From NCBI RefSeq assembly GCF_000784355.1, contig NZ_AXDV01000001.1:1-57676 (forward strand): a stretch of 57,676 nucleotides of DNA, read 5' to 3'. Position 1 is the stretch's first letter; every line of letters starts with the position of its first letter. Both the position numbers and the translations under genes were made by a program. This stretch comes from Methanolacinia paynteri (GTDB lineage: Archaea > Halobacteriota > Methanomicrobia > Methanomicrobiales > Methanomicrobiaceae). The notes below the pieces were generated by a model, which saw only the letters and a list, made by a program, of their open reading frames with translations, was not told the origin of the DNA and did no database searches. Shown here one piece after another: positions 22,394 to 43,858 of the stretch.

Positions 22394-22714
22394 ACAACCC
22401 TTGCGCAAGTTCGCTTCGCGAACACGCCCTGACCTCAGGGCTTTGCGCTATTGCGATAACCCGGCCTGGATGCTACCCATCCGGGAACTCTAAAGATAAT
22501 TTTCATGAAATGAACCGGTGACCGAAGGTCGCCGTAGGTTTCGAAAGGGCGAGAGCCCTTCGGTTGCCTCGGCCGGGGGAAAATAATTCCAAAATGCATA
22601 TGGTGACCAAAGTTCGCCAGCTCTCTCTGGAGCAAAAGGGGGATGCTCGTTCATCCCTTTTGCGACTTATCGCCATGAGGGGGAGGGTAACAGGGAGGGG
22701 GAAACCTCACTCTC
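22394..22714 (+). repeat. Dispersed structured repeat, copy A
   Basis: Non-coding region between convergent genes. Stems visible: GTTCGC/GCGAAC (22409-22423); GCCCTG/CAGGGC (22426-22441); a long-range CCCGGCC/GGCCGGG (22460-22466 with 22571-22577) enclosing GGATG/CATCC (22468-22482), GACC/GGTC (22520-22530) and AAGGGC-GAGA-GCCCTT (22545-22560); then GCAAAAGGG/CCCTTTTGC (22632-22663) and a terminal GGGAG-type hairpin near 22693-22714. A partial extra copy of the GGGGATG/CATCCCC hairpin lies at 22330-22360. Copies B and C keep these stems with paired changes. Confidence 0.75.
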
Positions 22715-22778
22715 CCTTAAAATTTTATTTTAAAACTCATGACGAATACAAACTCAATAAAAAAAAGAAAATAAAAGG

Positions 22779-23624
22779 TTAAGTCGTGATGATATCCACT
22801 CCGGAAGGCTTCATAATGGATATAAGCCATCCGGGGATCGCCTGTGATGTCTTCAGGACTACCTTGAAATCATCCCTGTTTGTTACGACGCCAATATATG
22901 TTGCAGTGACTTCGTAATCGGCATCATAGATAGGCATTCCGAACATCGTGATTATTACATGTTTTGCCGGGAAAGTCGTCGATTCACCCAGAGAGATAGT
23001 CCGCCTGTCGTTGTTGATGGAAAGGGTTACTGCATTTCCGCTGCTGATCGCCTGGACGGGAATGGGGCCGAAGTCGATCTTCTGGCTGTCGGGAATGAGT
23101 ACATCATATGTCCCGGTATATGAGAGCGGGTAACCGTATGCATCGAGAACACTGTTTCCGGTAATCAGGCTGACGTATCCTCCCGCTGCGATTAGAATCA
23201 CAATAATAATAATCCCGAGAGCGATCTTTCCTCCGTGGCCCTTTTTCGGAGCTTCAGCCTTCTGCTGGGCGCGAACCTCTTTTTCGATCTGGGCTCTTTT
23301 TCTCTCGTCTTCGAGCCGGTTTCTCTCTTCCTCGCGGGCCCATTCGTCCTTTTCCTTCTTCTTCCTGGCTTCCTCGGCAAGACATTCTTTTTCGGCCTGC
23401 TTTTCTGCTTCTATCTTCTCGTATTCCTTAGCTTTTTCAGCGTTTTCCTTCTCGCGCTTCTCTCTTTCGATCCTTTCGCGTTCGTCTTTCCTTATCTTTT
23501 CTTCGTCAGCCTGGGAGAGTCCCGGTTTCGGTTCTTTCTCCTCCGGTGTGTCCGGGAGCTTGACCGCCTCTCCCACCTTCTTTGTAAAACCTTCAAGTGA
23601 TTTTTTGTCAGGTAGTTTAACCAT
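22779..23624 (-). CDS. Coiled-coil membrane protein of unknown function
   Basis: 281 residues in three parts. Residues about 30-135 are an almost unbroken charged Glu/Lys/Arg coiled coil. A single transmembrane helix lies near 141-158 (IALGIIIIVILIAAGGYV). The last ~120 residues form a predicted beta-rich outer domain with no cysteine. Topology is therefore cytoplasmic coiled coil, one membrane pass, and external domain. The J-domain gene is 67 bases upstream on the same strand and may be co-transcribed. No function can be named. Confidence 0.75.
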   Translation of the reverse strand: MVKLPDKKSLEGFTKKVGEAVKLPDTPEEKEPKPGLSQADEEKIRKDERERIEREKREKENAEKAKEYEKIEAEKQAEKECLAEEARKKKEKDEWAREEERNRLEDERKRAQIEKEVRAQQKAEAPKKGHGGKIALGIIIIVILIAAGGYVSLITGNSVLDAYGYPLSYTGTYDVLIPDSQKIDFGPIPVQAISSGNAVTLSINNDRRTISLGESTTFPAKHVIITMFGMPIYDADYEVTATYIGVVTNRDDFKVVLKTSQAIPGWLISIMKPSGVDIITT

Positions 23625-23691
23625 GTTGTATCACCTCGATGATATTGCTCTATATGTCGAATTAGCTATATTTAAATTGCGAAAAAAGTAG

Positions 23692-24243
23692 TTATTCCTC
23701 ATCACTTTTTCTGACGAGAAATGGTTTTCCATCTATGACTACATATTCGTCCCCTTTTTGAATGAAATGATCTGCATTCCTAAGTACTTTTTCTGCACCG
23801 TCTACAAGATATCTTTCCGGCCCTTCAACCTTAAATGATAATTTCCCGCCGATATCGATCAGGCCGTCGTCGTAGACGATATACTCCCTCTCCCCCATTA
23901 TGAGGTGGCGGGCGCCGGTCATAGCAACTTCAGCACCGTCGATCAAAAAATGCTCTTCCTTTTCGCAGGTATATTCATAATCGGCCATCAGGGAATATTC
24001 GTCCTTTTTTGGGAGTTCCTCCTCTTTGGATGGTTCATTCAGTTCCCTGTCATAGGCGCTTCTCTTTTCGGGGTCCGATAGCACCGAATAGGCGGCAGAT
24101 ATTTTTTCGAAAAGCTGTTTTGCATTCGGGTGCGTCGCCGTGTCCGGATGATATACCTTTGCAAGGCTGCGATATGCTTTTATTATCTCATCAGATTCTG
24201 CGTTTGCATCAAGACCCAGCACTTCGTAGTAATTCTGCGCCAT
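23692..24243 (-). CDS. J-domain protein with C-terminal repeat module
   Basis: 183 residues. Residues 4-65 are a J domain with the HPD motif (KVYHPDTATHPN) near 32-34 and the YSVLSDPEKRSAYD helix. There is no Gly/Phe region, zinc finger or DnaJ C-terminal domain, so this is not a canonical DnaJ. The rest has two ~30-residue repeats, 'FLIDGAEVAMTGARHLIMGE' and 'YLVDGAEKVLRNADHFIQKG', each followed by a short beta strand pair. It could recruit an Hsp70 to a membrane site through the neighbouring coiled-coil protein; that is inference. Confidence 0.82.
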   Translation of the reverse strand: MAQNYYEVLGLDANAESDEIIKAYRSLAKVYHPDTATHPNAKQLFEKISAAYSVLSDPEKRSAYDRELNEPSKEEELPKKDEYSLMADYEYTCEKEEHFLIDGAEVAMTGARHLIMGEREYIVYDDGLIDIGGKLSFKVEGPERYLVDGAEKVLRNADHFIQKGDEYVVIDGKPFLVRKSDEE

Positions 24244-24345
24244 CTGATTACAGGTATGTCTGCTATGAATTATTTAACAGGGTGCTGATATCAAAAGCCA
24301 AAATATCATTATAAATAGTGACAGATTATTACAGAGGTTTTTTAA

Positions 24346-25227
24346 TTGGCAGAGATACCGGATGATGAGTATATTTTAAAGACCACGTCCGCCTGTGCCG
24401 GGTGCAGTATCCCTCTCTGTCTCCGGTATATCACAAAGGCGGCCGGTCCCGATACGGTACTGGTGATTCCTGCATGCTGTACAAGTGTTATACAGGGTTT
24501 GTATCCTAATACCGCGGTTAACATTCCCGTATACAATGTTGCTTTCGCCTCGGCGGCAGCAGTTGCATCAGGAATGAGCGAGGCTTTCCGTGCGGCAGGA
24601 AAGAAGACAAACGTCATCTGTTTCGCAGGAGACGGCGGGACGGTGGATATCGGTATCCAGGCCCTCTCCGGCGCACTTGAGCGTGGAACGGATTTCTTAT
24701 ACGTGTGCTACGACAACGAGGCATACTCAAATACCGGTATGCAGAGATCGGGTGCGACTCCGCTCGGTGCGGCAACGACAACGACGCCGGCGGGAAAGAA
24801 AGAGTTCAAGAAGGACCTTGACGCGATTGTAAACGCACACAACCCGGTATATATGGCGACCGCGTGCAGTGCATATCCGCTCGACCTTTACAACAAGGTG
24901 GAAAAGGCACTCTCGATCACCGGGCCGAAGTTCATACACATTCTTGCACCGTGTCCGCCGGGATGGAGATACCAGTCCGATAAGACGATCTCTGTCGGAA
25001 AACTTGCAGTGCAGTCGGGCATGTGGGTTCTCTATGAGCGTGAGAACGGAAAGATAAGCCTGACCGGGGCATCGAAGGCTGCTGCAAAGAAGAGAATCCC
25101 CGTGGAAGACTACCTTAAGGCACAGGGAAGATTCAAGACCGCCTCAAAAGAGGAGATCTCCGAACTTCAGCAGGCGGTCGAAAATAATTTCAAAAGGATC
25201 GAAAAGGAGGTTGACGGGACATGCTGA
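24346..25227 (+). CDS. porB: Pyruvate:ferredoxin oxidoreductase, beta subunit
   Basis: 293 residues from a TTG start with GAGGT about eight bases upstream. It binds thiamine pyrophosphate (GDGGTVDIG ... YDNEAYSNTG near residues 92-130) and an iron-sulfur cluster through Cys residues in ACAGCSIPLC and ACCTSV near the N-terminus. The complex reversibly makes pyruvate from acetyl-CoA and CO2 with ferredoxin, the main carbon entry into biosynthesis in methanogens. First gene of a tight porBACD cluster. A 2-oxoisovalerate enzyme is a less likely alternative. Confidence 0.9.
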   Translation: MAEIPDDEYILKTTSACAGCSIPLCLRYITKAAGPDTVLVIPACCTSVIQGLYPNTAVNIPVYNVAFASAAAVASGMSEAFRAAGKKTNVICFAGDGGTVDIGIQALSGALERGTDFLYVCYDNEAYSNTGMQRSGATPLGAATTTTPAGKKEFKKDLDAIVNAHNPVYMATACSAYPLDLYNKVEKALSITGPKFIHILAPCPPGWRYQSDKTISVGKLAVQSGMWVLYERENGKISLTGASKAAAKKRIPVEDYLKAQGRFKTASKEEISELQQAVENNFKRIEKEVDGTC

Positions 25228-26333
25228 ATGTAGGAACAGGCAATAAGGCAGTGGCACTTGCGGTTAGAGATGCAAAACCCGGTGTAGTCGCTGCGTACCC
25301 GATCACCCCTCAGACCGAGATAGTCGAAGAGATTGCGAACCAGGTGAGTTCCGGAAAGCTGGGTGCGAGGTATATCCCCGTTGAGTCCGAGCACTCTGCA
25401 ATGGCCGCCTGCATCGGTGTTGCCGCGACCGGCACAAGAACATTTACCGCAACAAGTTCGCACGGTCTTGTCTACATGTGCGAGATGCTCCACTGGGCGG
25501 CCGGTGCACGCCTCCCGATCGTTATGGCGAATGCGAACCGTGCTCTCGGTCCCGGCTGGAATATCGGCGCCGAACATTCGGACTCCATGTCCATGAGGGA
25601 CTCCGGGTGGCTCCAGGTATATGCGTCGACCGTACAGGAGGCATACGATGCGACGATAATCGCGTTCAGGATTGCAGAGAATGAAAACGTTCTGCTCCCT
25701 GTGATGATCAACCTCGACGGTTTCCTCCTGACCCACGTCACGCAGGGATTCGAGACTGTCGATCCATCCGGGTTCCTGCCCCCCACAAACACCCCACACG
25801 CCATCGATATCAATAATCCTGGCGGCTACGGGACGCTCACCGCAAACACCGACCACTACAAGTTCCGCCACGACATCATGGTCGGAATGAAGAACTCCGT
25901 AGCAGTTATAGAAGATGCCCAGAAGGAATTTGAGAAACATTTCGGCAGGAAATACGAGATGTACGAGGAGTACATGACAGAGGATGCCGAAGTCCTTGTA
26001 ATTGCGATGGGAACAATAGGCAAGGAGATGGAGGTCGCGGTCGACAAACTTCGTGAAGAAGGAGTTAAGGCGGGTTCAATCCGGGTTCGCTGGTTCAGGC
26101 CGTTCCCTGACCTGAGGGAAAAATTCGAAGGGAAAGAGATCGTCGTAATCGACCGCGATTACTCGTTCGGCTTCGGCGGAATTCTTGCCAATGAACTCCG
26201 TGCGAAGACCTGCTGCAACCCTTACAGCGTCATCGCCGGCCTCGGCGGCCAGGATGTCACATATGACGATATCGCCGGGTTTGTCCGGGACAGGAAACCT
26301 GGCGAAGAGTTCTGGTTCGGGGTGAGCGAATAA
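25221..26333 (+). CDS. porA: Pyruvate:ferredoxin oxidoreductase, alpha subunit
   Basis: 370 residues. The N-terminus has the family's AAYPITPQTEIVEEIA motif and VESEHSAMAACIGVAATG; later segments include GPGWNIGAEHSDSM and a C-terminal RVRWFRPFPD that matches the CoA/substrate domain. It starts seven bases inside porB, so translation is coupled. Confidence 0.92.
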   Translation: MLNVGTGNKAVALAVRDAKPGVVAAYPITPQTEIVEEIANQVSSGKLGARYIPVESEHSAMAACIGVAATGTRTFTATSSHGLVYMCEMLHWAAGARLPIVMANANRALGPGWNIGAEHSDSMSMRDSGWLQVYASTVQEAYDATIIAFRIAENENVLLPVMINLDGFLLTHVTQGFETVDPSGFLPPTNTPHAIDINNPGGYGTLTANTDHYKFRHDIMVGMKNSVAVIEDAQKEFEKHFGRKYEMYEEYMTEDAEVLVIAMGTIGKEMEVAVDKLREEGVKAGSIRVRWFRPFPDLREKFEGKEIVVIDRDYSFGFGGILANELRAKTCCNPYSVIAGLGGQDVTYDDIAGFVRDRKPGEEFWFGVSE

Positions 26334-26860
26334 TGTACGAGATAAGGCTTCATTCAAGGGGCGGGCAGGGTGGTGTAACAGCCGCAAAGATCCTTGCTCA
26401 TGCTGCATTCCTCGACGGTAAATATGCAACTGCAACTCCTCTCTATGGTGCAGAGAGGCGCGGTGCACCTGTGGTTTCGTTCATCAGGATCGATGACAAG
26501 CCTATAAAGGTCTATTCGCAGGTAAGAAACCCCGATCTTGTAATTGTTCTCGATCCGGGAATCATGAACATGGTCGATGTTATGCAGGGCATCCACAAAG
26601 ACGGCAAAGTCCTGATCAACAGCCCGCATAAACCGGAGATGGATGGTCACAAGGTCTACAACATCGATCTTACGGGGATCGCATTATCTCTCGATCTCGT
26701 CGTGGCAGGAAACCCGATCCTCAACACCCCTCTTCTCGGGGCTCTTGCAAAGATCGGCCTGGTATCGAGGGAATCTGTCAGGAAGGCGATATCCGAGGCG
26801 TTCTCGGACGAGAGGAACGGGACAGCAGCCCTTAAGGCGTACGAGGAGCTGGTAATATGA
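26333..26860 (+). CDS. porC: Pyruvate:ferredoxin oxidoreductase, gamma subunit
   Basis: 175 residues, typical of the gamma subunit: RLHSRGGQGGVTAAKILA at the N-terminus, YGAERRGAPVVSFIRI and a nucleotide-fold core. Its ATG shares one base with the porA stop. Gamma helps bind CoA and hold the complex together. Confidence 0.92.
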   Translation: MYEIRLHSRGGQGGVTAAKILAHAAFLDGKYATATPLYGAERRGAPVVSFIRIDDKPIKVYSQVRNPDLVIVLDPGIMNMVDVMQGIHKDGKVLINSPHKPEMDGHKVYNIDLTGIALSLDLVVAGNPILNTPLLGALAKIGLVSRESVRKAISEAFSDERNGTAALKAYEELVI

Positions 26861-27099
26861 GTGCAAAACTTGCAATATCGAGACCTAAAGAGGGAGCCGC
26901 AGGAAAGACCGGCACCTGGAGAACTTTCAAGCCAGTAGTCGACAGGGAACTCTGCAACAAGTGCGGAAACTGCGAGAGGTTCTGCCCCGACGGAACTATC
27001 TCAAAAGAGTTCGAGATCGATCTCGAGTTCTGCAAAGGCTGCGGAATCTGTGCCGATGTCTGCCCCAAGAAGGCCATAAAGATGGTCAGGGAAGAATAG
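26857..27099 (+). CDS. porD: Pyruvate:ferredoxin oxidoreductase, delta (ferredoxin) subunit
   Basis: 80 residues with two [4Fe-4S] motifs, CNKCGNCERFCP and CKGCGICADVCP, that carry electrons from the TPP centre to ferredoxin. Overlaps porC by four bases (ATGA). It is the last gene of the operon; order is B-A-C-D, the reverse in outline of the common C-D-A-B arrangement. Confidence 0.93.
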   Translation: MSAKLAISRPKEGAAGKTGTWRTFKPVVDRELCNKCGNCERFCPDGTISKEFEIDLEFCKGCGICADVCPKKAIKMVREE

Positions 27100-27156
27100 G
27101 CAAAAAAATCCTGGAATTAAATTATAATCAATATTTTTTCGTGAAAGCTGTGGCGG

Positions 27157-27594
27157 CTAATTCTGCTCTCCCAGCTGTTTTTCTATATCGTTGCGGATTT
27201 TTTGGATATCTTCGAGAAGGAGGCGGAGTTTTACAGGATCGTTGACTTTCTCCCTTGACAATCCTTCACCGACAACTTCGTCATCAAGATACCTTATACC
27301 CCAGAACCCAAGTACCTTTAAAACGATAACCAGTTTATCACCCGCTTCCGTAAGCGAATATTCGACCTTCGGAGGAACTACCGGATATACTGTTCTTGTA
27401 ATAATGCCGTCACGTTCGAGTTCGCGAAGCTGCTTTACCAGCATCTTCTCGCTGATCGAGGGCAGTTTGTGTAATATTTCACTATAACGCAGTTTTCCGT
27501 CTCTTAATACAAGAACGATCAACAGTTTCCATTTTCCCCCGATTACATTGACTGCCGCTTCGACCCACGACCAGTATTCCTTGTTCTTTGCCAT
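27157..27594 (-). CDS. HxlR-family winged-helix regulator
   Basis: 145 residues. The family's core is clear: VNVIGGKWKLLIVLVLRDGKLRYSEI near residue 15 and LPSISEKMLVKQLRELERDGII, then VEYSLTEAGD. There is no cysteine near the N-terminus of the kind used by redox-sensing members. It is divergent from the MFS exporter, which is its likely target. Confidence 0.88.
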   Translation of the reverse strand: MAKNKEYWSWVEAAVNVIGGKWKLLIVLVLRDGKLRYSEILHKLPSISEKMLVKQLRELERDGIITRTVYPVVPPKVEYSLTEAGDKLVIVLKVLGFWGIRYLDDEVVGEGLSREKVNDPVKLRLLLEDIQKIRNDIEKQLGEQN

Positions 27595-27721
27595 TTCTGA
27601 CTTTCATTTTGGTTAGTATGTGATAAAATGGTGCGTATGGTGTATTAATCCGGAGAAGTCGATCTGTATAACGCATCCGGCTTGACAGTCTGAAATGTCT
27701 GCCGGGCGGAAGGAATACAGG
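27595..27721. promoter_or_regulatory. Divergent promoter region between HxlR gene and exporter
   Basis: 127 bases between two divergent starts. Contains direct GTATG words at 27616-27620 and 27635-27639 plus GTAT at 27642-27645, spaced about two helical turns apart, which could be operator half-sites. Confidence 0.35.
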
Positions 27722-29464
27722 ATGAATACAAAATCTACAAATAATCAGCAAAATTCCAACTTTGCCGAAGGGGGCGGCAGGAGGGGTATACAATATAAAT
27801 GGGTCGCACTCTCGAATACGACCATCGCAATGTTCATGGCAGCGGTGAACGGGAGCATCCTCCTGATCTCCCTGCCGGCGATCTTCAACGGCATCAATAT
27901 AAATCCCCTCACTTCGTTCCAGTACCTTCTCTGGATTCTGATGGGATATGGTGTGGTGACGGCGACGCTGCTCCTTAGTTTCGGGCGTCTCTCCGATATG
28001 TACGGACGTGTCAGGCTTTACAACATAGGCTTTGCAATATTTACGGTGGGTTCGGTCCTCCTCTTTTTTACACCGGATACGGGTGACGCCGGGGCGATTG
28101 AACTGATTGTCTTCAGGTTAATACAGGCGATAGGTGCGGCGTTTATATTCTCGAACAGTGCCGCGATACTCACCGATGCATTTCCGCCTGACGAGCGCGG
28201 GAAAGCGCTCGGCCTCAACCAGGTGGCAGCTATCGCCGGCCAGTTTATCGGCCTCATTATCGGCGGGCTGCTGGCTGTGTTCAACTGGAGGTATGTCTTC
28301 CTGATAAGTGTGCCGTTCGGGGTGATCGGTACGATCTGGGCATTTTTAAAACTCAAAGAGACTGACTGCCGGGAAAAGAGGCCCCAGAAGATCGATATAT
28401 GGGGAAATCTGGTATTTATCGGAGGTCTGACGATTTTCCTGATCGGCATAACCTACGCCCTGATACCATACGGGGATTCGCCGATGGGCTGGGGAAGTCC
28501 GTTCGTGATCGCCTCTCTTGTCGCGGGCTTCCTGCTGCTTGTCGCATTTCCGTTTATCGAGATGAGGGTGGAAGATCCGATGTTCAGGATAGATCTCTTC
28601 AGGGTCAGGAATTTTGCATTCGGCAATGCCGCCGGTTTTCTCTCCGCCCTTGCCCGCGGCGGAGTGATGATAATTCTGATCCTGCTTCTTCAGGGTATCT
28701 GGCTGCCACTGCACGGTTACAGTTTCGAATCTACTCCGTTCTGGGCGGGAATATACATGCTGCCGCTCACGATCGGTTTTGTTGTGATGGGGCCGATCTC
28801 AGGCATTCTCTCCGACAGGTACGGTGCACGCTGGCTGAGTACAGCGGGAATGGTGCTGGTCGGGATCTCGTTCCTGGTTCTTGCAGCACTCCCGTATGAC
28901 TTCGATTACCTGCCCTTTGCTCTGGCTCTGCTTATTATGGGTCTTGGAAACGGACTGTTCGCATCCCCCAATTCGGCGGCCATCATGAATTCGGTAGGAC
29001 CCGGCGAGCGTGGTGTCGCTTCCGGAATGATGGCAACCCTGATGAATTCGGGCTTCGTTCTCTCGATGGGAATGTTCTTCACGATCATAGTTGTGGAGCT
29101 TACCAAGGCGTTTCCCCCGGTGCTGACATCAGCTCTTACAGCCGCCAATGCAACATCGCTCATCGCCGACATGAGTGCGATACCACCGACAGGAGCCCTT
29201 TTCGCTGCGTTCCTGGGATATAATCCGGTGGAGATGATCATTGACGGGCTATCGCCTGCACTGGTTGCAAACATAGCGCCTGCAACGATTGCTACCCTGA
29301 CAAATACGGTCTGGTTCCCGACGACTCTCGCGGAGGCGTTCATGCCGTCGCTCGGTTTGTCGTTCTATATCGGGGCAGCACTTTCGTTTGTCGCCGCAGT
29401 CCTGTGTGCGATGAGGGGCAACAAATACATCGAGGAGCTCGACAACGCACCGGGGAAAGACTGA
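27722..29464 (+). CDS. MFS exporter, 14-helix drug:H+ antiporter type (DHA2)
   Basis: About 580 residues from ATG 27722, preferred over ATG 27695 because GGAAGG lies eight bases before it. Fourteen hydrophobic helices, motif A-like [16 protein letters not shown] in loop 2-3 and a second [11 protein letters not shown] in the middle, place it in the EmrB/QacA family. It probably exports a hydrophobic or toxic compound with proton influx. An insertion of about 60 hydrophilic/Ala-rich residues lies before the last helix ([14 protein letters not shown] region). Divergent HxlR regulator suggests inducible expression. Confidence 0.88.
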
Positions 29465-29539
29465 TGTCTTCAATCCGCAAGGCGTATCTGATGAGAAGAT
29501 AAATCAGGATTAAGACCGGGTAATGAAGGAGATATAAAA

Positions 29540-29971
29540 ATGGCAGGTAAGTTGTTTGGCAAAGTTCTGATTGCAACGGACGGTTCGGAGAACAACAGGA
29601 GTGCTCTTGAGGAGGGCATAAAAGTCGTTCGTGAATGCGGGGGTGCCGGTTACGCGGTTTATGTTATCGACTCCCACACGCTGTCCACGTCCTCGGCCGA
29701 GATCCCTGTAGGCGATGCCTGCGAGGTTTCGATGGACGAGGCGAAGAAAGCGTTCGATCTGCTGAAGTCCCTGTCTGGAGATGTTAAGTTTGAGACGAAG
29801 ATCCTTGACGGCAGACCGGGAATGGAGATCGTGAAGTTTGCCGAAAAAGAAGGAATAGACCTGATTGTTATCGGCACGAAGGGAAAGAAGGGGCTTGAGC
29901 GGCTGCTTTTGGGAAGCGTCGCGGAAGAAGTGATCCGCTCTGCTACCTGCAAAGTGCTTGTCGTGAAATGA
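29540..29971 (+). CDS. Universal stress protein (UspA family)
   Basis: 143 residues. KVLIATDGSENNRSALEEG at the N-terminus and the nucleotide-binding G-x2-G-x9-G-S pattern (GTKGKKGLERLLLGS) near residue 115 are intact. Shorter than, and only moderately similar to, the UspA at 18.8 kb. Preceded by GGAGAT about eight bases from the ATG and followed by a T-run. Confidence 0.92.
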   Translation: MAGKLFGKVLIATDGSENNRSALEEGIKVVRECGGAGYAVYVIDSHTLSTSSAEIPVGDACEVSMDEAKKAFDLLKSLSGDVKFETKILDGRPGMEIVKFAEKEGIDLIVIGTKGKKGLERLLLGSVAEEVIRSATCKVLVVK

Positions 29972-29985
29972 TTTTTTCTTTTTTT
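29972..29985 (+). terminator. T-run terminator after uspA
   Basis: Thirteen Ts interrupted by one C begin at the base after the stop codon. Confidence 0.5.
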
Positions 29986-30589
29986 GGGCCTTGGAGAAAT
30001 CCTCTAAGGAAATAGCGACTGAAAGATCGATCATATAGGAACTTAATTTTATTTTACCACAAATCTGACAATTGTAAAATGCTGCGGAGATACAACTGTC
30101 CAGATGGTCCTGACCAGGATTACCGCCTCGCAATTTCTGAAGTAGTTTGCAACTTTGCACACGTTTGTACAAACTTTGCACAAAGATTTTGCAAACCAAA
30201 TAACTGCAATAAAGAGATTTTTCGAATAATTACTCAAATATCTCTATTTTATCATTTAGTTTGCAAAAAAACTGAAACCACACAGAAGCCGACAGCAGGA
30301 TCTATGCAAAAAGCGTCCTGTGTGTGTACCGGTATTTTTGTGCAAACTAGAGCAATAATAATAAAAAAAATTATTATATGTACAATAATTTGAAAAATAT
30401 CTTAGAATTTCGTTTTTTTAATTTGCAAAACTTTTTGCAAATTGTGCGCAACGTTGTGCAAAGTTGCAAAAATAGATCCTTTAGAACCATCATGACAGAA
30501 CAAGAGGCTAAAGCACGAAAAAAAATTGATAGGTTTTCTACGGAGCGTTTTTTGTAGTGATTTTATACTTTTGAGGGCATAAGCCCATT
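29986..30589. other. AT-rich non-coding region with TTTGCA array
   Basis: No credible gene. TTTGCA/TGCAAA words occur at 30146, 30154, 30175, 30188, 30260, 30305, 30341, 30422, 30434, 30457 and 30465, in both orientations. A perfect 12-base palindrome GTTTGTACAAAC lies at 30163-30174. The density is far above that of neighbouring regions. It could be a protein-binding array, a replication or partition site, or relic DNA. Confidence 0.5.
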
Positions 30590-30875
30590 CGGGGCAGCCC
30601 CATGCTCAGTTCGCTTCGCAAGTTCCGCGAACTTTTGCAAAGATGATAGTACGGCCTGGACGCTACCCGTCCGTGTAGCTCTAAAATTTAATTTCATGAA
30701 ATGAACCGGTGACCGAAGGTCGCTCTCGGTCTCGAAAGGGCGACAGCCCTTCGGTTACCTCGGCCGTGAAAAAGTAATTAGCTAAAGTTTGGAGCAAAAG
30801 GGGATGCTTGTCCATCCCTTTTGCGACTTATCGCGATCAGGGGGATGGTTATAGGGAGGGGGTCCCCTCCCTGTA
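30590..30875 (+). repeat. Dispersed structured repeat, copy B
   Basis: Shares with copy A the stems ACGGCC/GGCCGT (30651-30656 with 30762-30767), GGACG/CGTCC (30658-30672), GACC/GGTC, AAGGGC-GACA-GCCCTT (30736-30751), GCAAAAGGG/CCCTTTTGC (30794-30824) and a perfect terminal hairpin GGGAGGGG/CCCCTCCC (30854-30871). Its 5' part is less similar to A and C (no GCCCTGA/TCAGGGC stem). Confidence 0.75.
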
Positions 30876-30969
30876 TTATAATTATTTTGTAAAAACTCCA
30901 GACAGAAGCTAAATATATCATTGAAATTTTATAATGAATCATCTGAAAAAAGAGTCAGGGTGTATCGCA

Positions 30970-32037: not shown

Positions 32038-32088
32038 AATGAATTATTTAAGAAATATATTCTTTTAGCTTGAAATTAAAAAACGACA

Positions 32089-32161
32089 CGCCCCCAACAG
32101 GACTCGAACCTGTGACATTCTGGTTAACAGCCAGACACTCTACCAACTGAGTTATGGAGGC
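32089..32161 (-). tRNA. tRNA-Asn (GTT)
   Basis: A 73-base cloverleaf on the minus strand. Acceptor stem GCCTCCA/TGGGGGC, D arm CTCAGTTGGTAGAG, anticodon stem TCTGG/CCAGA with loop CTGTTAA and anticodon GTT, T arm CACAGGTTCGAGTCCTGTT. Discriminator G; the CCA end is not encoded. No intron. Confidence 0.96.
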
Positions 32162-32223
32162 AGTACTTGCACTGTTCAACGTGCCTATAGATGTTGATTT
32201 TTCCGTTATTAAATATTATGGAT

Positions 32224-32517: not shown

Positions 32518-32539
32518 ACGGGTGACCCCCTGGAAAAAT

Positions 32540-32767: not shown

Positions 32768-32837
32768 TGCATTAAATTGTTTGGCATCATCTCGTAAAAT
32801 TACTTGTGTATCAAAGGTGAAGTATTCAGGGAACAAT

Positions 32838-34843: not shown

Positions 34844-34888
34844 TATTGTATTACAACGAATAATATTAAATTATTTTTTCAGTTTTCA

Positions 34889-34917
34889 GGATAATATAGC
34901 GTGAGATAATATTATCC
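34889..34917. promoter_or_regulatory. Inverted repeat upstream of the AAA ATPase gene
   Basis: Perfect 9-base inverted repeat GGATAATAT / ATATTATCC at 34889-34897 and 34909-34917, 11 bases apart, ending 31 bases before the ATG. Could be an operator or an RNA hairpin. Confidence 0.45.
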
Positions 34918-34948
34918 CGTTTGAGCAGTAAAATATGATGTTGTACAT

Positions 34949-36232: not shown

Positions 36233-36948
36233 AGATAACAATTCTCGGTACCGGCGATACTGTCGGAACCCCCCGTGTGGGGTGCGACTGCGGGGTCTGC
36301 ACCCTTGCAACCGAAGAAGGCCGTTCACGTCTCAGGACATCTTTTTTGATCGAGAATGAAGGAAAAAATATACTAATAGATACATCCCCCGATTTAAAGG
36401 AGCAGCTGATCCGGACAGGTGCGCCGAAGATAGGCGCTGTGCTTTGGACACATGCACATTACGATCATATCGCGGGATTCAACGAGTTCTACAGGGTGCA
36501 GGACTTCCCGCCTGCATATACGCCTGAAAAAGTGATGGATGATATCTCAGGCTTCTTTCATTTTTTGAGATTTAAGAAGAACATCGTCGAACCGTACGAG
36601 CCTTTCATCCTTTTCGGGATGGAGATCACGTTTGTTACAGTCAATCACCCCCCTATAGACACCTATGGGATTGTAATCCGTTACAACGGGAAAAAGATCG
36701 GTTACACTTCAGATACGAACCCGAACCTTCCTGAAAGGACGGTGAAGGAACTGATGAACTGTGATCTTCTTTTCTTAGACGCCCTGATGCTCCCTGACGT
36801 CCACATCGGAAAGCACATGAATATAGCCGAAGCAGAAGACCTTGCACAAAAACTCTCGCCGAAAGAGTACTATTTTGTCCACATGAGCCACAGGATTCCT
36901 ATGTCATACCCGCACGCCGCCACGGATTTTATGACATTCGAGTTCTGA
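36229..36948 (+). CDS. MBL-fold metallo-hydrolase (PhnP-like)
   Basis: 239 residues. The N-terminus has an additional GCDCGVCTLA cysteine motif, as in PhnP, which binds a structural zinc. The catalytic metal site is THAHYDHIAGF near 80, with a later MSHRIPMSYPH that includes further ligands. PhnP-like enzymes hydrolyse cyclic phosphodiesters, but no phosphonate genes are present, so the substrate is open. ATGA overlap with the AAA ATPase suggests co-function. Confidence 0.87.
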   Translation: MKITILGTGDTVGTPRVGCDCGVCTLATEEGRSRLRTSFLIENEGKNILIDTSPDLKEQLIRTGAPKIGAVLWTHAHYDHIAGFNEFYRVQDFPPAYTPEKVMDDISGFFHFLRFKKNIVEPYEPFILFGMEITFVTVNHPPIDTYGIVIRYNGKKIGYTSDTNPNLPERTVKELMNCDLLFLDALMLPDVHIGKHMNIAEAEDLAQKLSPKEYYFVHMSHRIPMSYPHAATDFMTFEF

Positions 36949-36972
36949 TTTTTGTGGCTGATTCGACCAATA

Positions 36973-36980
36973 CTTATATA
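36973..36980 (+). promoter_or_regulatory. Probable TATA box for rpoL
   Basis: CTTATATA, 30 bases before the rpoL ATG; transcription would begin only about ten bases before the start codon. Confidence 0.45.
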
Positions 36981-37010
36981 CTCGTATAAAATCCAAGAAT
37001 ATGGGTACCT

Positions 37011-37280
37011 ATGGAGATAAAAGTAATAGAACTAAAGGACGATCTCGCACGCATAATGTTTGTCGGGGAAGGGCATACCTTCATGAATGTACTTGTGGAT
37101 GAGATTCTGAAGAATCCCGAAGTCGATGTCGCAAACTACAGCAGTGAGTTCCATTTTACAGATCCTGTACTTCTTGTAACTACAAAGAATGGTAAAAATC
37201 CGCTCGATGCAATCCGTGAAGCTGCATCTGCAATTTCCGGCAATTGTACAGGGCTTATTGAGACTCTTAACAATTCCTGA
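37011..37280 (+). CDS. rpoL: DNA-directed RNA polymerase subunit L
   Basis: 89 residues, the usual length of archaeal Rpo11. Conserved features are IELKDDLARIMFVGEGHTFMN at the N-terminus with the EGHT motif, and FHFTDPVLLV followed by the helix that pairs with subunit D in the assembly platform. A lone gene, convergent with the aIF2-beta gene. Confidence 0.94.
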   Translation: MEIKVIELKDDLARIMFVGEGHTFMNVLVDEILKNPEVDVANYSSEFHFTDPVLLVTTKNGKNPLDAIREAASAISGNCTGLIETLNNS

Positions 37281-37299
37281 AAAAAAATATAAAAAAAAT
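37280..37299 (-). terminator. T-run terminator for the aIF2-beta gene
   Basis: Read on the minus strand, two runs of eight or so Ts separated by ATA lie directly after the aIF2-beta stop codon. Confidence 0.5.
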
Positions 37300-37300
37300 A

Positions 37301-37918
37301 TTATTTTCTGATTGGTTCCGTAAAGGCGATAGTGCCTGCAACTCTTGTTATCTTCACCCTGACCTTCTGGCCCGGTTTCGTATTTGCAACGTAAAGCGTA
37401 TATTTGCCGACCTTTGCAACGCCGTCTCCTCTTTTGGAGAGGAACTGGATCTCGGCATCGATCTCTTTTCCTTCCTCGACAAGATTTGCGGTTGCGTCTC
37501 CCCTGGCTCTCCTCTTCCTTACAGGTCTGTGCCCTCCGCATGCATCGCACCTGAGCATCATGATCCTTCCGTCTTTCACGAGCCTTGTATCGGGTTTCCC
37601 GCACTCTGAACAGATCACGTAATCTTCGGTATACTTATTCACAAGATCTGCAATAAGATCGCGATCGAATTTTCCGTTGAATATTGCACGGTTCCCGTCT
37701 ATCTTGCCGGCCGTTCCAAGCTCTCCAAGCAGGTATTTCATAACATGGTCGGGCTCTCTTCTGAGGGTGGAGACGATATCGGAAAAATTTTCAAGAACCG
37801 TTGTTTTCCCCTCAATGTACACCCTGGCTTCGGGTACCTGAAAACGTCCCTCATCACCGGAAGTCTCCGTGATGTTGCTGTATGCCTTTTCTAAAAGGGC
37901 TTCATAAGGGTCTGTCAT
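37301..37918 (-). CDS. Translation initiation factor aIF2, beta subunit, with TRAM domain
   Basis: 205 residues from ATG 37918. The core ends with a zinc ribbon, [12 protein letters not shown] ... LRCDACGG, near residues 102-125. The final ~60 residues are a TRAM domain ([29 protein letters not shown]) that binds RNA and is fused to aIF2-beta in many methanogens. Together with alpha and gamma subunits it delivers initiator tRNA. The open frame continues upstream to 38083 but that part lacks homology. Mitochondrial-type IF2 is unrelated. Confidence 0.93.
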
Positions 37919-38111
37919 GTCTAATAATATTGATGCTTTAAATAGATATAACTCACTTTGCTGACCTCCTCCCAGGCAAAGAATAAAAATTCGAATCTGC
38001 AAAAGATTGAATATCACTTCTGAACTTCGTTTAGACAGGGGAAACAAAACATGTACTTTTAATGGTAAAAAGGAACAATACATCCGATAGTTACCTTAGG
38101 AGGAATTATTT

Positions 38112-40658
38112 TTGAAGGTGATGGAGCCGTTTTTGGAAATAATCGGTGAAGAGTCCGGCAAAAAGGATATTTCTTATCTGGCTATGATCGGGCTTGTCAT
38201 TTTCATGGTCGTGCTTTCCGAAACTGCTCTGGTCTTTACAACCAGCGGTCTTTTTCTCCTTTTGTCCAATCTCTTCTATTTCCCGCTGATCTATATAAAC
38301 ATGAAATGCTATGAACGGGGCCTTGCAGTCAACTCTGCTTTGGGTGCAGTATATTTTATAATATCCCTGTTTCTGGTTCATTTCGATGTTGTAGATATCC
38401 TGATTGCATTCTCAATGACAGTGACATATATTGCGGTCGGGATCAGCATAGCAATGATATCAAAGACGAACAATGAGAATAAAAATATCCTGATCGACAG
38501 CATCAGCAATTATGAAAATTTCTTCGAGGAGATCCAGGATGCAGTTCTTGTCTACAATTCTTCAGGGGAGATTCTCGGCGTCAACAATGCTGCATCAAGA
38601 TTATTCGGCCTGGAAAAGAAGTACCTTACTTTTCTTAAAATTGAGGACCTGGGGAATTTCATTGAAAAGGATGATCTGAAAAAAGCGTTCTACGATATCA
38701 GCCCCTCCAAAAGCGGTTTTACGGATACCCGGCTGAAACAACAGGGTGGGAATACAATCTATGTCGAAATTCTCTCGAGCGCTGTAGATCCGTCAAAAGG
38801 AATTATGAGGGCTTATATCCGGGATGTCACCTCCAGGGTTGTCGCAGAGGAGAAGATCCATGATAGCGAAGCGCGGTACCGGCACCTCACAAATCAACTG
38901 CCCGAGATGATATTCGAGCTGGATACCGATGGAAATTTCACATTTTCAACACGTTATTCTATCAATCTTGCCGGAAAAACACCTGAAGAACTTACAGGCG
39001 GGATGAAGTTCTGGGACATTCTGGTTGAAGATGACAGGGATCGTGCCCGTAAAAATCTGGAATGGTTCTATAAAGGGATGTTTCTGGGCGCAGTGGAATA
39101 CAGGCTGGCTAAACCCGACGGTGCCGTTATTCCTGTTATGGTTCATTTCAGCTATGATTTTGACGACAACAGTGCGGTGCAGGGGATCAGGGGCCTTGCT
39201 ATGGATATCAGCCAAAGGAAAAGGATGGAGATGGCCCTGCGCCGAAACGAAAAAAAATTCAGAAGTCTGTTTGAGAATTCAAATGACGCTGTTATCATAT
39301 TCGACAGGGACGGCTATATAATCGATATAAATACACGTCTTTGTCTTATGCTGGGCATAAGGAGGGATGAGGCAGTTTCCCAGACTCTTGAGTCCCGTTT
39401 TCCCGTGCCCGAATGGGGCAAAATATCGCAGATGTATGAAAATTCATCATCCGAAGGTGTCTGTTTCGAGTCCCGGATGCAGAATAAGGAAGGATCATTC
39501 ATCGATGTTGAGATAAGCTCCGGGATAATCGATCCCGGAGAAGGCCTTTATCAGGCGATCCTAAGGGATATATCCGAAAGGAAGCGTGCCGAAGCTGAGC
39601 TTGCCCTCAGCAGGGGCAGACTCAACCTGGCAATAGAGGGCGCCGGAATGTGTGTTTGGGACTGGGATCTGGAGAAAGACGAGATGGTCTTCGAAGGCAA
39701 GTATGAAGAGATGTTTGGCCTTTTGAACGGGAATGATAATAGTCACGGCGCTATATGGAGGGAAATTCTCCAGGAGGAGTTCTATACAAAGATTATGGAT
39801 CTGTATTCCAACTGCAATGACCCGGAGAAATCAGATCCGAAATCCGCACAATTCGAATCCGAGTATAAATTCAGGACATCTGCAGGGACATACAAATGGA
39901 TAGTAGTTCTCGGCAAAGTCGTGAAATGCAGTTCAGACGGGAATCCTATACGGATAACCGGTATAATGCAGGATGTATCCGATAAAAGAAGGTCGCAGAA
40001 TGCATTATATGAGGCAAATAAAAAACTCAATCTTCTCTCCAGTATAACCCGGCATGATATACTGAACCAGATCGCCGGCGTCAGGGGATTTACCGATATC
40101 CTGAGCAAAAGGCTTCCTGAGAAAAACTCAGAACTTCTGCATTACCTTGATATGATCAAGAAGGCCACATCCAATATCCAGGAACAGATTACTTTTACAA
40201 AGGATTACCAGAATATCGGCGTAGAAAGTCCTGCCTGGCAGAACCTTGAAAAGGTTATCGAATCTTCACGCTCAAAAGCCCAGCTCAGGGATATTGCGTT
40301 CTTCAATGAATGTCATGGCCTTGAAATTTATGCAGACCCGATGATTGAAAAGATCTTTTTCAACCTGCTGGATAATGCCATCCGCCACGGCGGCAGTGTA
40401 ACCGAGATTGATGTGAAATGCAGAAAAAGCAGGAATTTCCTCTTCATAATTGTTCGTGACAACGGGACTGGTGTACCCGTCGATCTTAAGGAAAAGATCT
40501 TCGATCATGGTTATGGCAGCAATACCGGACTCGGGCTGTTTCTTGTAAGGGAGATTCTCGGGATTACGGGTATGGAGATTAAAGAGGTGGGTGAACCCGG
40601 AAGCGGTGCGGTATTCGAGATAAAAATACCCGCCGATCATTTCAGACAGATCGGATAG
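38112..40658 (+). CDS. Membrane-bound multi-PAS sensor histidine kinase
   Basis: 848 residues from a TTG start with AGGAGGA about eight bases upstream. Four transmembrane helices span about 17-115, forming a small membrane sensor. Four PAS/PAC domains follow at about 135-245, 255-375, 385-495 and 500-630. A HisKA-like region carries LNLLSSITRHDILNQIAGVRG near 645 with a His, and the HATPase has NLLDNAIRHGG (N box), DNGTGVP (G1) and GLGLFLVREI (G2). Both phosphoacceptor and ATPase are intact. The response regulator 97 bases downstream is the probable partner. Confidence 0.88.
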   Translation: MKVMEPFLEIIGEESGKKDISYLAMIGLVIFMVVLSETALVFTTSGLFLLLSNLFYFPLIYINMKCYERGLAVNSALGAVYFIISLFLVHFDVVDILIAFSMTVTYIAVGISIAMISKTNNENKNILIDSISNYENFFEEIQDAVLVYNSSGEILGVNNAASRLFGLEKKYLTFLKIEDLGNFIEKDDLKKAFYDISPSKSGFTDTRLKQQGGNTIYVEILSSAVDPSKGIMRAYIRDVTSRVVAEEKIHDSEARYRHLTNQLPEMIFELDTDGNFTFSTRYSINLAGKTPEELTGGMKFWDILVEDDRDRARKNLEWFYKGMFLGAVEYRLAKPDGAVIPVMVHFSYDFDDNSAVQGIRGLAMDISQRKRMEMALRRNEKKFRSLFENSNDAVIIFDRDGYIIDINTRLCLMLGIRRDEAVSQTLESRFPVPEWGKISQMYENSSSEGVCFESRMQNKEGSFIDVEISSGIIDPGEGLYQAILRDISERKRAEAELALSRGRLNLAIEGAGMCVWDWDLEKDEMVFEGKYEEMFGLLNGNDNSHGAIWREILQEEFYTKIMDLYSNCNDPEKSDPKSAQFESEYKFRTSAGTYKWIVVLGKVVKCSSDGNPIRITGIMQDVSDKRRSQNALYEANKKLNLLSSITRHDILNQIAGVRGFTDILSKRLPEKNSELLHYLDMIKKATSNIQEQITFTKDYQNIGVESPAWQNLEKVIESSRSKAQLRDIAFFNECHGLEIYADPMIEKIFFNLLDNAIRHGGSVTEIDVKCRKSRNFLFIIVRDNGTGVPVDLKEKIFDHGYGSNTGLGLFLVREILGITGMEIKEVGEPGSGAVFEIKIPADHFRQIG

Positions 40659-40755
40659 AGAGAACCCGAATGCCGAAATGGTATAAATAGGAAACAAATT
40701 TTAACTTTCGGGTAGACAGCCTATCTGTTAAAATATTTCAATGAGGGATTGGTAA

Positions 40756-41127
40756 ATGCACGATAAAAAAATTCTCGTAGTTGAAGATGATGCGATAATT
40801 TCCGAACTTATCATGTGGCGGCTGAAGGATCTCGGTTATGCCAACTGCAAATTTGTTTCCTCGGGAGAAGAAGCTGTTGAGGAAGCCAGGGCGATGTCTC
40901 CCGATCTGATCCTGATGGATGTTACACTTGACGGCGATCTCGACGGAATCGATGCAATAAAAGAGATCAAGAAGTTTATTCCCGGAGTGCCTTTCGTATA
41001 TCTGAGCTCGCACATGGAGAACGATATAATTGAGCGTGCTCTTGAAACAAAGCCTTCGGGTTATATAGCAAAACCTTTCGAGGACTTTGAACTCAGAATG
41101 GGAATTGAAATCGCTCTCATGAAATAA
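40756..41127 (+). CDS. Single-domain response regulator
   Basis: 123 residues, CheY-like receiver with no output domain. Acidic pocket VEDD near residue 10, phosphorylation Asp in LILMDVTLDGDLDG near 52, conserved Ser in VYLSSH and Lys in YIAKPF near 103. Its adjacency to the kinase at 38.1 kb suggests a cognate pair. The output route is unknown. Confidence 0.9.
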   Translation: MHDKKILVVEDDAIISELIMWRLKDLGYANCKFVSSGEEAVEEARAMSPDLILMDVTLDGDLDGIDAIKEIKKFIPGVPFVYLSSHMENDIIERALETKPSGYIAKPFEDFELRMGIEIALMK

Positions 41128-41253
41128 TATACCAAAATCGAATTTTTACATGAAAATCGCGTTGTGATTTACATGAAACAGTCAATGAAACTTTTGTTTC
41201 ATAAACGTTTTTAATCAATATTATCTCGTCTGAAAACCAGATATTTCTGCAGT

Positions 41254-43326
41254 ATGCTATCGCCCTGTGATGAGGAATATATTGAAAAGAAGCTCGGGAG
41301 GAAACTCACAGCTCTTGAATACGCATGTTTTGAAAACCTATGGAGTGAACACTGCTCTTACCGCTCCACGAAGCCTCTGCTGAGGACACTCCCGACCGAC
41401 GGAGAAAACGTTCTCCTCGGCCCCGGGGACGATGCGGCAATCGTGAAATTCTCCGATGAGATCGCACTTTCAATAGGGATGGAGTCGCATAATCATCCAA
41501 GTTACGTGGACCCTTACGACGGTGCCGCTACAGGGGTTGGAGGAATCGTCAGGGATATCATCTCGATGGGTTCAAGACCTATTGCCCTTATGGATCCTCT
41601 CTTCTTCGGTGAGATATCGGGCGAGAAGAACAGGTACATCTTCGAACATGTAGTTGCAGGTATCGGTGATTACGGAAACTGTATAGGTGTCCCTGTGGTG
41701 AGAGGAGATCTTGTCTTTGATAAAAAATATGCGGGGAATCCTCTTGTTAATGTGGTCTGCGTAGGAATCGTTCATCCTGATAAATTCCTTACCGCCCGCG
41801 TGAAACAGCCGGGAAGCAGGCTCGTCCTTTACGGGTCTTCAACAGGCAGGGACGGTCTCGGTGGAGCGTCGTTTGCATCCCGCGATCTCTCAGAAGACTC
41901 GGAGGCCGAAGACAGACCGGCAGTTCAGGTGGGCGATCCCTACACGGAAAAACTCCTTATCGAAGCGACCCTTGAACTTGCCGAAACAGGAAAGATTCTC
42001 TCGTGCAGGGACCTCGGTGCAGCCGGGCTTGCGGGGGCATCTTCCGAGATGTCGGAGACCTTCGGTGCAAGGCTCTATGCCGACAGGGTTCACCTCCGCG
42101 AGGAGAACATGAACGAGGTTGAGATCTTCCTTGCAGAATCTCAGGAGAGGATGCTTGTCGAGGTCAGGCCTGAGAATGTTGCTGAGATTACCTCGATAAT
42201 TGAGAAGTACGATCTCAAATGGAGCGATATAGGTGAGGTCACCGAGGAGAAGAAGTACGTGATATCGTTTAACGGCGAGATCGTGTGCGACCTTCCGATC
42301 GATCTCCTTGTCGGCGGGGCGCCTGAGGAGGCATGGTCCGGGAGTTCCTATAATATTACGAAGGAGTATGTTAAACCGCGGGCTTCACTTAAGGAACTGT
42401 GCCTGAAAGTCCTCTCTCACCCGGAGATCGCAAAGAAGGACTGGGTAAGCCGCCAGTATGATCATGACGTTCAGCTGAGATCTGTTTCTGTCGAGGGAGG
42501 TGCAGCATGCCTGAAACTCGGTGATGCAGGATTGTATCTTTCGTGTGGGTGTTCCCCAAGGCAGATCTTCCTGAAGCCGTATGAGGGGACGGCCAATGCA
42601 GTGTATGAGAATGCCGCGAACCTTGCCGCGATGGGAGCAGAACCGCTCTGTATAGTGAACTGCCTGAATTTTGCAAGTCCGGTTCATGACGATGTGTTCT
42701 GGCAGATCAGCGAATCGGTTCGCGGCATGGGCGATATGTGCCGCAGTCTCGGAGTTCCTGTTGTCGGCGGTAACGTTTCCCTCTATAATGAGAGCGATGA
42801 ATTCGGAACCCAGATCCCTCCGACTCCCTGCATCGGTATGGTAGGGAAAGGTGCTGTTAGAATTTATACTCCAGCGTCTGCCGGGCAGAAACTCGCGCTG
42901 ATAGGGAAATGTGAAGGCGGCATGGGCGGCTCACTCCTTGATGAAATTACAGGTTGCGGCGGAGAAGCCCCTGCTATTCCGGACACTTCTGTCTTGGAGC
43001 TGGTAAGATCCCTTGTAAATATGGGTAAGGTATCGTCTGCAACCGATATTTCACACGGGGGTCTTCTGGCTGCGGTCGTGTCCTTTGCCGGAACTGCCGA
43101 CCTGAAACTTTCCGGTGATCCTGTTGAGACGCTCTTTTCAGAGAGTTATGGTCGCTTCCTTGTGGCTGTTGATAATGAAAAAAGTCTTGAAGGCATCGAA
43201 TACGAGATGATCGGAACTGCCGGTGGGGATTCGCTGAAGATCAGGTTCGGGAATGAAGATCTGGTTCTTGAAAGAGCTGAGATTGAATCTGTGCTGGAAT
43301 CGACTACGAAAATAATGCGATACTGA
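41254..43326 (+). CDS. purL: Phosphoribosylformylglycinamidine synthase, PurL subunit
   Basis: 690 residues, the size of the small-type PurL that works with PurQ and PurS. Visible are ENLWSEHCSYRSTKP near the N-terminus, GPGDDAAIV, SHNHPSYVDPYDGAATGVGGI and the second repeat with DISHGGLLAAV. It catalyses the fourth step of purine synthesis, FGAR to FGAM with ATP and ammonia. PurQ and PurS are not encoded nearby. A T-run follows the stop. Confidence 0.95.
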   Translation: MLSPCDEEYIEKKLGRKLTALEYACFENLWSEHCSYRSTKPLLRTLPTDGENVLLGPGDDAAIVKFSDEIALSIGMESHNHPSYVDPYDGAATGVGGIVRDIISMGSRPIALMDPLFFGEISGEKNRYIFEHVVAGIGDYGNCIGVPVVRGDLVFDKKYAGNPLVNVVCVGIVHPDKFLTARVKQPGSRLVLYGSSTGRDGLGGASFASRDLSEDSEAEDRPAVQVGDPYTEKLLIEATLELAETGKILSCRDLGAAGLAGASSEMSETFGARLYADRVHLREENMNEVEIFLAESQERMLVEVRPENVAEITSIIEKYDLKWSDIGEVTEEKKYVISFNGEIVCDLPIDLLVGGAPEEAWSGSSYNITKEYVKPRASLKELCLKVLSHPEIAKKDWVSRQYDHDVQLRSVSVEGGAACLKLGDAGLYLSCGCSPRQIFLKPYEGTANAVYENAANLAAMGAEPLCIVNCLNFASPVHDDVFWQISESVRGMGDMCRSLGVPVVGGNVSLYNESDEFGTQIPPTPCIGMVGKGAVRIYTPASAGQKLALIGKCEGGMGGSLLDEITGCGGEAPAIPDTSVLELVRSLVNMGKVSSATDISHGGLLAAVVSFAGTADLKLSGDPVETLFSESYGRFLVAVDNEKSLEGIEYEMIGTAGGDSLKIRFGNEDLVLERAEIESVLESTTKIMRY

Positions 43327-43335
43327 ATTTCAGTC

Positions 43336-43350
43336 TTTTTTTTCTTTTTT
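43336..43350 (+). terminator. T-run terminator after purL
   Basis: Eight Ts, a C and six Ts starting about ten bases after the purL stop. Confidence 0.5.
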
Positions 43351-43364
43351 ATTAGTGCCCTTTT

Positions 43365-43858
43365 TCAGAGGCAACCCTTGGATAAATTCACCTTTTTTTT
43401 ACTATCTTGCAAGGTGACCTAAGGTCTCCGTAGGTTTCGAAAGGGCGACAGCCCTTCGGTCGGCAACCCTTGCGCAAGTTCGCTCCGCTTTGCTTCGCGA
43501 ACACGCCCTGACCTCAGGGCTTTGCGCTATGGCGATAGCCCGGCATGGACGTTACCCTTTCGGGTAGCCTCGGCCGGGGGAAAACAAAATCGAAGATGGA
43601 TAAATCCATGACTGAGTGGTGCAGGATTTTAAAAAAGAGAGAGATCTTTGCTATTGATTTTTTGTGAAAGGTGACTAAGGCTGTTCCGGGTTTCGAAAGG
43701 GTAGTTAACCCTTTGGTTGCCTCAACCTGGAATAAAATCTTGGATCAAAACAGGCGGAGTTTGTTTGGAGCCAAAGGGGATGCTTGTCCATCCCCTTGGC
43801 GACTTATCACCATGAGGGGGAGAGTAATAGGGAGGGGGAATCCTCCCCCTCCCGAATT
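43365..43858 (+). repeat. Dispersed structured repeat, copy C (composite)
   Basis: The longest copy, between convergent genes. It holds two versions of the core hairpin: AAGGGC-GACA-GCCCTT at 43441-43456 and AAAGGGT-AGTTA-ACCCTTT at 43696-43714, the second enclosed by CCGGGTT/AACCTGG (43686-43730). Between them are GCCCTG/CAGGGC (43505-43520) and TACCC/GGGTA (43553-43566). The 3' end has GCCAAAGGGG/CCCCTTGGC (43770-43800) and a perfect 9-bp terminal hairpin (43830-43853). Modules are in a different order from copy A, as if one copy had inserted into another. Confidence 0.75.

Follow-up and report, generated by a model that had tools for sequence, protein, structure and literature searches.

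A modular, folded and probably mobile repeat in Methanolacinia and its relatives whose 3' tip is a described G-quadruplex repeat

Two described systems come close to the repeat that we report here. BOX elements of Streptococcus pneumoniae are built of separable modules with predicted stem-loops, are over-represented between convergent genes and are thought to be mobile (PMC3049150, from the parts of that paper available to us). The rPQS repeats of Chashchina et al. 2021 (PMC8044849, likewise available in part) occur in 12 of 20 Methanomicrobiaceae genomes. They are intergenic and strand-neutral, with about half placed tail-to-tail, 39% head-to-tail and 11% head-to-head. They are defined by four G-runs, loops of 1 nt, 3–5 nt and 1 nt (A), and a 3' C3TC3 tract, and the DNA oligonucleotides fold in vitro as G-quadruplex (G4), hairpin and triplex. 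Here we assign this archaeal G-quadruplex repeat, so far reported without an explanation, to a far larger folded element. The element is probably a modular non-autonomous mobile repeat of Methanomicrobiales, BOX-like in build, in which an AT-rich linker, itself not conserved, joins the folded 5' domain to the 3' module, likewise folded.

The window, a 57,676-nucleotide stretch of Methanolacinia paynteri DNA, contains three copies of the element, A, B and C. A first-pass annotation of the sequence had reported all three on the plus strand. A search with copy A against its own genome (hereafter G000) confirmed that they are present and homologous: it returned 81 matches in all, including copy B (E 1.3e-45) and the modules of copy C (E 3.9e-25 and 5.0e-23). 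The limits of the copies needed adjustment. Copy A keeps its start and extends to 22394-22717 (previously 22394-22714), copy B becomes 30575-30872 (previously 30590-30875), starting about 15 bp further 5', and copy C spans about 43413-43854 (previously 43365-43858). The recognizable parts are as follows.

8125-8154, minus strand: M1 fragment of 30 bp (nhmmer, E 2.8e-05)
22330-22365, plus strand: extra, incomplete H4-like hairpin, stray, upstream of copy A (direct reading; weak match 22327-22357)
22394-22459, plus strand: copy A, 5' domain H2 (module M1 with an extra CGCCCTGACCTCAGGGC hairpin), ending GCGATAA (nhmmer, 22395-22459)
22460-22577, plus strand: copy A, H3, closing CCCGGCC (22460-22466) with GGCCGGG (22571-22577)
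22518-22568, plus strand: copy A, M3 hairpin nested inside H3 (H3 helix supported in other copies)
22629-22717, plus strand: copy A, 3' module M4 with H4, TATC motif and G-rich/C-rich tip (R1, 92.7 bits)
30575-30640, plus strand: copy B, H1 and H2, short form (variant I)
30651-30772, plus strand: copy B, H3 (ACGGCC/GGCCGT), with nested M3 hairpin at 30709-30757
30791-30872, plus strand: copy B, 3' module M4 (R1, 87.6 bits)
43413-43464, plus strand: copy C, M3 hairpin in the place of H1
43464-43538, plus strand: copy C, H2 (module M1), ending GCGATAG
43540-43578, plus strand: copy C, H3 in minimal form
43672-43721, plus strand: copy C, second M3 hairpin, inside the linker
43767-43854, plus strand: copy C, 3' module M4 (R1, 98.5 bits)

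Copies A and C sit between convergent genes and copy B between divergent genes. The neighbouring genes are of ordinary types (Pfam search, E <= 0.001). A pseudouridine synthase gene adjoins A, a gene for an HSDR_N protein adjoins B, and the neighbours of C encode AIR-synthase-like and flavodoxin-like proteins; the two remaining immediate neighbours have no Pfam match at that threshold. A separate dispersed repeat, about 70 bp long and with the palindrome GAAAC..GTTTC at its core, lies at 41144-41212 of the window. It has at least 42 matches in G000, at least 41 in G001 and at least 40 in G014 (genomes introduced below), counting partial matches, with about 40 candidates scored per genome.

Profile searches on the collected loci resolve four modules, M1 to M4. 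Read 5' to 3', the element consists of H1, H2 (with an optional second hairpin), a GATAR motif, H3, the linker, H4, a YTATC motif and the tip. H3 closes with the helix CCCGGCC/GGCCGGG and in some copies carries the nested M3 hairpin. The AT-rich linker between H3 and H4 is unlike from copy to copy. H4 has a tandem GA internal loop in many copies, and the 3' tip reads GGGGGAGGG-loop-GGGAGGGGG opposite CCCCCTCCC. There are two 5' forms, a short one in which H1 is GGGCATAAGCCCC..GGGGCAGCCC and a longer one with M3 followed by M1; the 3' module M4 has a single form. Elements measure about 200-450 bp, and composites are longer. The modules are separable and vary in number and order, as the module strings of the elements record, and predicted minimum-energy folds were computed for the element. 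Three loci are unusual in their build. At L061:2489-2583 a 3' module has an M3-type hairpin in the place of H4, a natural module swap. At L217:1886-2401(-) two elements stand in tandem, with near-identical stretches of about 20 bp between them and on either side; an element may have been duplicated together with its spacer. The contig at L067 opens (positions 1-45) with a long near-perfect palindrome around H4, which may be an assembly artefact.

We modelled the 3' module in a covariance model (R1) built from 27 of 30 catalogued 3' modules, two more at contig ends being skipped. At E <= 0.001 it finds 57 matches in G000 and 73 in a close complete relative (G001), which we take to be Methanolacinia petrolearia; out of about 1000 candidates per genome, 150 were scored. 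A few of the weakest matches are members of a second family, described below.

The first-pass annotation proposed that the hairpins keep their pairing through paired base changes. This proposal is supported against shuffled and slid controls, which are not phylogenetic and do not fully remove the relatedness between copies, and again in the alignment of the second family. Among 34 short-form 5' domains (alignment A4), 97.9% of cells are paired, and six pairs comprising 29 cells have changed on both sides. None of 500 shuffles reaches the observed percentage, cell count or covariation score, and three reach the number of pairs; in the slid controls 28-53% of cells are paired. One measure does not exceed the shuffles: 492 of 500 reach the observed number of further pair types. 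The compensatory support comes from H2 (two pairs) and H3 (four pairs), and H1 has no compensatory change in these 34 domains. Of the 51 full-length 5' domains, alignment A3 takes in 49 and A4 takes in 34; those omitted have H2 in another register or with an insert. For H4, 36 hairpins (33 distinct) give 95.8% of cells paired and 26 cells with both sides changed. Again no shuffle of 500 reaches the percentage, cell count or score, 14 reach the number of pairs, and the number of further pair types is not above the shuffles (96 of 500). These 36 hairpins (alignment A5) are a single length class out of 67, and the length class of the window copies is catalogued separately; copies A, B and C are rows of neither A4 nor A5.

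Particular helices can be traced from the window to the family. The base of H3 changes from CCCGGCC/GGCCGGG in A to ACGGCC/GGCCGT in B, and H4 changes from GCAAAAGGG/CCCTTTTGC to GCCAAAGGGG/CCCCTTGGC. Both changes are seen directly, and both helices covary in the family. The proposed change from GGATG/CATCC to GGACG/CGTCC is visible in A and B, yet it belongs to no family helix: 34 copies hold no compensatory cell there, and the pairing is no better than in shuffled alignments. The AAGGGC/GCCCTT hairpin is M3, which recurs in the family. Its loops had been described as GNRA, correctly for GAGA and incorrectly for GACA. We also set aside a long-range pairing between GATAR at the end of the 5' domain and YTATC in the 3' module, the core of which is already demanded by the search pattern. 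In 63 pairs, some of which match by chance, the flanking letters have no clear covariation by eye.

Selection on pairing may act through single-stranded DNA, a cruciform or RNA. An excess of G-U over A-C cells, tried as a sign of RNA, proved inconsistent: the 5' domain has 10 G-U and 17 A-C cells, and H4 has 10 and 2. The H4 count leans towards RNA or single strands. Strand statistics do not decide between the three forms.

Gene context was scored for 104 elements with scores of at least 60 in the G000 and G001 loci, 12 of which were dropped because they lacked an ORF on one side or both. A simple script, not annotation, supplied the ORFs, and sites common to both species were counted twice. 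The remaining 92 elements comprise 46 between convergent, 36 between tandem and 10 between divergent genes. Only 36 of 263 element-free gene pairs in the same loci are convergent. In the tandem gaps 15 elements are sense and 21 antisense, and across the 92 there is no clear orientation bias relative to the neighbouring genes. Overlap with a long ORF was found for 4 of the 92. The copies mostly avoid genes, in line with their earlier description as a dispersed, non-coding repeat. Their upstream flanks have no common motif that we could see beyond AT-richness.

The element has turned over between close species, which differ in its presence, form and orientation. At site A the flanks are collinear in G001 and the element there has the opposite orientation; in a third genome of the genus (G002, 84% complete) the gap is about 114 bp and element-free, the one site seen empty. 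At site C, G001 has a short-form element in the opposite orientation and G002 an element in the orientation of the window. At site B both genomes have a short-form element, and the neighbourhood is rearranged. Next to site B, G000 and G001 differ by the inversion of a stretch of about 480 bp, and not of the repeat alone (L116 ~1406-1888 versus window 29983-30465).

For 29 of 54 G000 elements tested, the G001 loci compared contain a partner element beside matching flanks. Sites sharing two flanks number 20, with 14 pairs in the same orientation and 6 inverted; those sharing one flank comprise 8 in the same orientation and 1 inverted. Two G000 contig ends (L065 and L066) map to a single G001 element and are counted twice among these sites. 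The 25 elements with no partner are a mix of true absence, uncompared loci and contig ends. The mean identity of 3' modules is 0.889 in 18 same-orientation pairs and 0.854 in 6 inverted pairs, compared with 0.811 over all 2,337 G000-G001 combinations. The 18 pairs were hand-picked and include one-flank pairs as well as window copy B, which is unpaired under the stricter flank rule; 8 of them are best matches among 57. In the inverted pairs (6 of 7, omitting window copy A, whose partner has a split 3' module) the 3' modules resemble each other more than chance would give (rank sum p 0.004) and the 5' domains do not (ranks 7, 23, 9, 24, 29 and 9 of 45 G001 loci). Inversion in place and replacement are therefore indistinguishable for these pairs. 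On the identities and ranks together, some copies look inherited and others flipped or replaced. As many sites are common with the relative, fresh insertion need not be the main present-day process.

R1 matches occur in 29 of 120 neighbourhood genomes, the window's own included (E <= 0.001). A sample of the phylum adds a wider view: at E <= 0.0001 at least 5 of 294 genomes match, again including its own, and all five belong to the same order; strict filters and few candidates per genome mean that weak matches are lost from this search. ISL3 insertion elements make 8-bp duplications, and a genome of another genus (G014) links the 3' module to such an element. Of 20 loci there with the left end of a MITE, 15 contain the intact element. 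It measures 382-384 bp, has imperfect terminal inverted repeats, is flanked by target-site duplications and carries the 3' module close to its left end. In 13 of these 15 loci the 8 bp on the two sides agree completely; in L259 and L263 they agree at 7 of 8 positions. One further left end (L266) leads to a 662-bp relative, which has an 8-bp duplication of its own and in which a broken frame encodes an ISL3 helix-turn-helix (PF13542, E 3.3e-10). The other four have no right end within 700 bp, and no full-length parent ISL3 element was found from the 20 left ends in G014. A 34-base pattern of the MITE left end is absent from G000, G001 and G002 at up to 3 mismatches, and the ISL3 link, seen in another genus, may have arisen by secondary capture. 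At L177, G014 further has an element of full layout whose stem sequences differ.

The second family, of 243-290 bp (25 full copies), has a similar layout and ends that pair, AACCCC with GGGGTT. We found at least 14 near-full copies in G000 (one in L059) and 15 in G001; examples are L055:3266-3535(-), L059:242-531(-), L179 and L180. It forms tandem arrays in G000 and in G001, where units lie about 330-360 bp apart and the last is partial. In an alignment of 23 of the 25 full copies (A6), 15 of 68 predicted pairs have compensatory changes. The layout, the H4 hairpin, the TATC motif and the weak R1 matches to some members suggest common descent with the window family. More distant elements (L155-L168, families f4 and f5), several of them carrying the motifs GCGATAG and TATCGC, and with a G-rich/C-rich tip, suggest an order-wide superfamily.

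The first-pass annotation left two readings side by side, a structured RNA and a hairpin-rich mobile element. The mobile element fits better than an RNA gene, given the absence of a clear orientation bias, the enrichment between convergent genes, the empty site and the inverted copies. With no strand preference relative to genes, and with the MITE link added to the inversions and the empty site, we favour a mobile DNA repeat, and the element probably acts as DNA. Copies would spread and be replaced through folded DNA, either because an enzyme acts on them in trans or because their hairpins drive recombination between one copy and another. Selection on the folds would then serve propagation and not the host. 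A multi-copy structured RNA, with copies transcribed, the folded RNA binding a protein or working in trans, and copy number set by need, would account for the compensatory changes in the 5' domain, H4 and the second family, for the RNA-like tandem GA loops and the G-U excess in H4, and for a second family of similar layout whose paired ends close the fold. We regard it as unlikely: the 5' domain favours A-C over G-U, upstream flanks share, as far as we could see, only their AT-richness, orientation to neighbouring genes has no clear bias, and copies are inverted and replaced at shared sites. It seems to us improbable that the host maintains the element as a DNA signal, for example a boundary or terminator separating convergent genes, that works through the G-quadruplex, hairpin or triplex tip. 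Half of the elements do lie in convergent gaps, the 3' end is strongly palindromic and the tip oligonucleotides take up these folds in vitro (PMC8044849, in the parts available), but such a signal leaves unexplained the elaborate 5' domain, the empty site in the third species, and the 36 of 92 elements in tandem and 10 of 92 in divergent gaps.

The ends of the element and the enzymes of its hosts bear on how a mobile repeat could move. Among 40 parsed elements of the window's genus, a few of them mis-parsed, we found no convincing target-site duplication; shared flank letters are in weak excess (10 of 300 permutations reach it), which includes one tandem duplicate with a 9-letter match. Nor did we see terminal inverted repeats by eye in the element ends. 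High-copy intergenic hairpin repeats that lack target duplications would suit REP/BIME-like repeats that a Y1 transposase of the RAYT type moves, or group II introns and other retro-elements moved by a reverse transcriptase. However, Y1_Tnp has no match in G000, G001 or G002 (the last 84% complete), and RVT_1 has none in G001 or G002 and one in G000. Neither enzyme is supported as the driver by these searches of three genomes, and this explanation, already disfavoured, is very improbable. Returning to the mobile DNA repeat, a bolder form of it is tentative and, in our judgement, rather unlikely: the repeat would represent a type of archaeal mobile element not described before, which encodes no protein and whose folded DNA (or RNA) uses its own secondary structure both to spread and to turn round at its site, with an undescribed enzyme recognising the fold or with template switching driven by the hairpins. 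If this were true, the second family, partly in tandem arrays, would be a sister lineage.

How does the element compare with known systems? At gathering score an Rfam search of the whole window returned tRNA only, and lax searches with site A and five loci gave only tRNA and sub-threshold matches. The earlier statement that it matches no known family therefore stands for RNA families. It fails for the 3' tip, the final few dozen bases of the element, which is the G-quadruplex repeat of PMC8044849 as described in the available parts of that paper. The consensus of alignments A1 and A2 matches the rPQS pattern, from which single copies depart. The likeness extends to the G-run pattern, the single A between the last two runs and the C3TC3 tract, to the Methanolacinia loops TCA(C/T)A, which agree with the present tip, and to the intergenic, about half convergent and strand-neutral placement that we find for our 92 elements. 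The difference is one of extent: the parts of that paper available to us describe only the tip and its C-rich partner, without the upstream H1-H4, the modularity, the covariation, the inversion or the MITE link. The literature matches listed, from a search outside which most subscription papers lie, give no account of the element beyond its tip. Because the tip is part of a larger element that has turned over between species, the question becomes what moves or flips that element, not what a lone quadruplex regulates.

REP/BIME sequences with RAYT are likewise many-copy, intergenic and palindromic; the present element is much longer, and its three host genomes have no Y1 transposase. ISL3-family MITEs resemble it in that the G014 3' module lies inside copies of 382-384 bp that have 8-bp duplications and imperfect repeats at their ends, whereas such ends are not seen on copies of the window's genus. 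The closest working analogue is BOX, also a composite modular repeat with stem-loops and enriched in convergent gaps. BOX differs in having terminal inverted repeats that resemble those of ISSpn2, of a kind not seen by eye in the window's genus, and it belongs to another domain of life; for the archaeal element the compensatory changes have been measured (BOX from the available parts of PMC3049150). For the archaea this is a BOX-like system, and one that allows compensatory evolution to be measured over about 100 copies in two close species.
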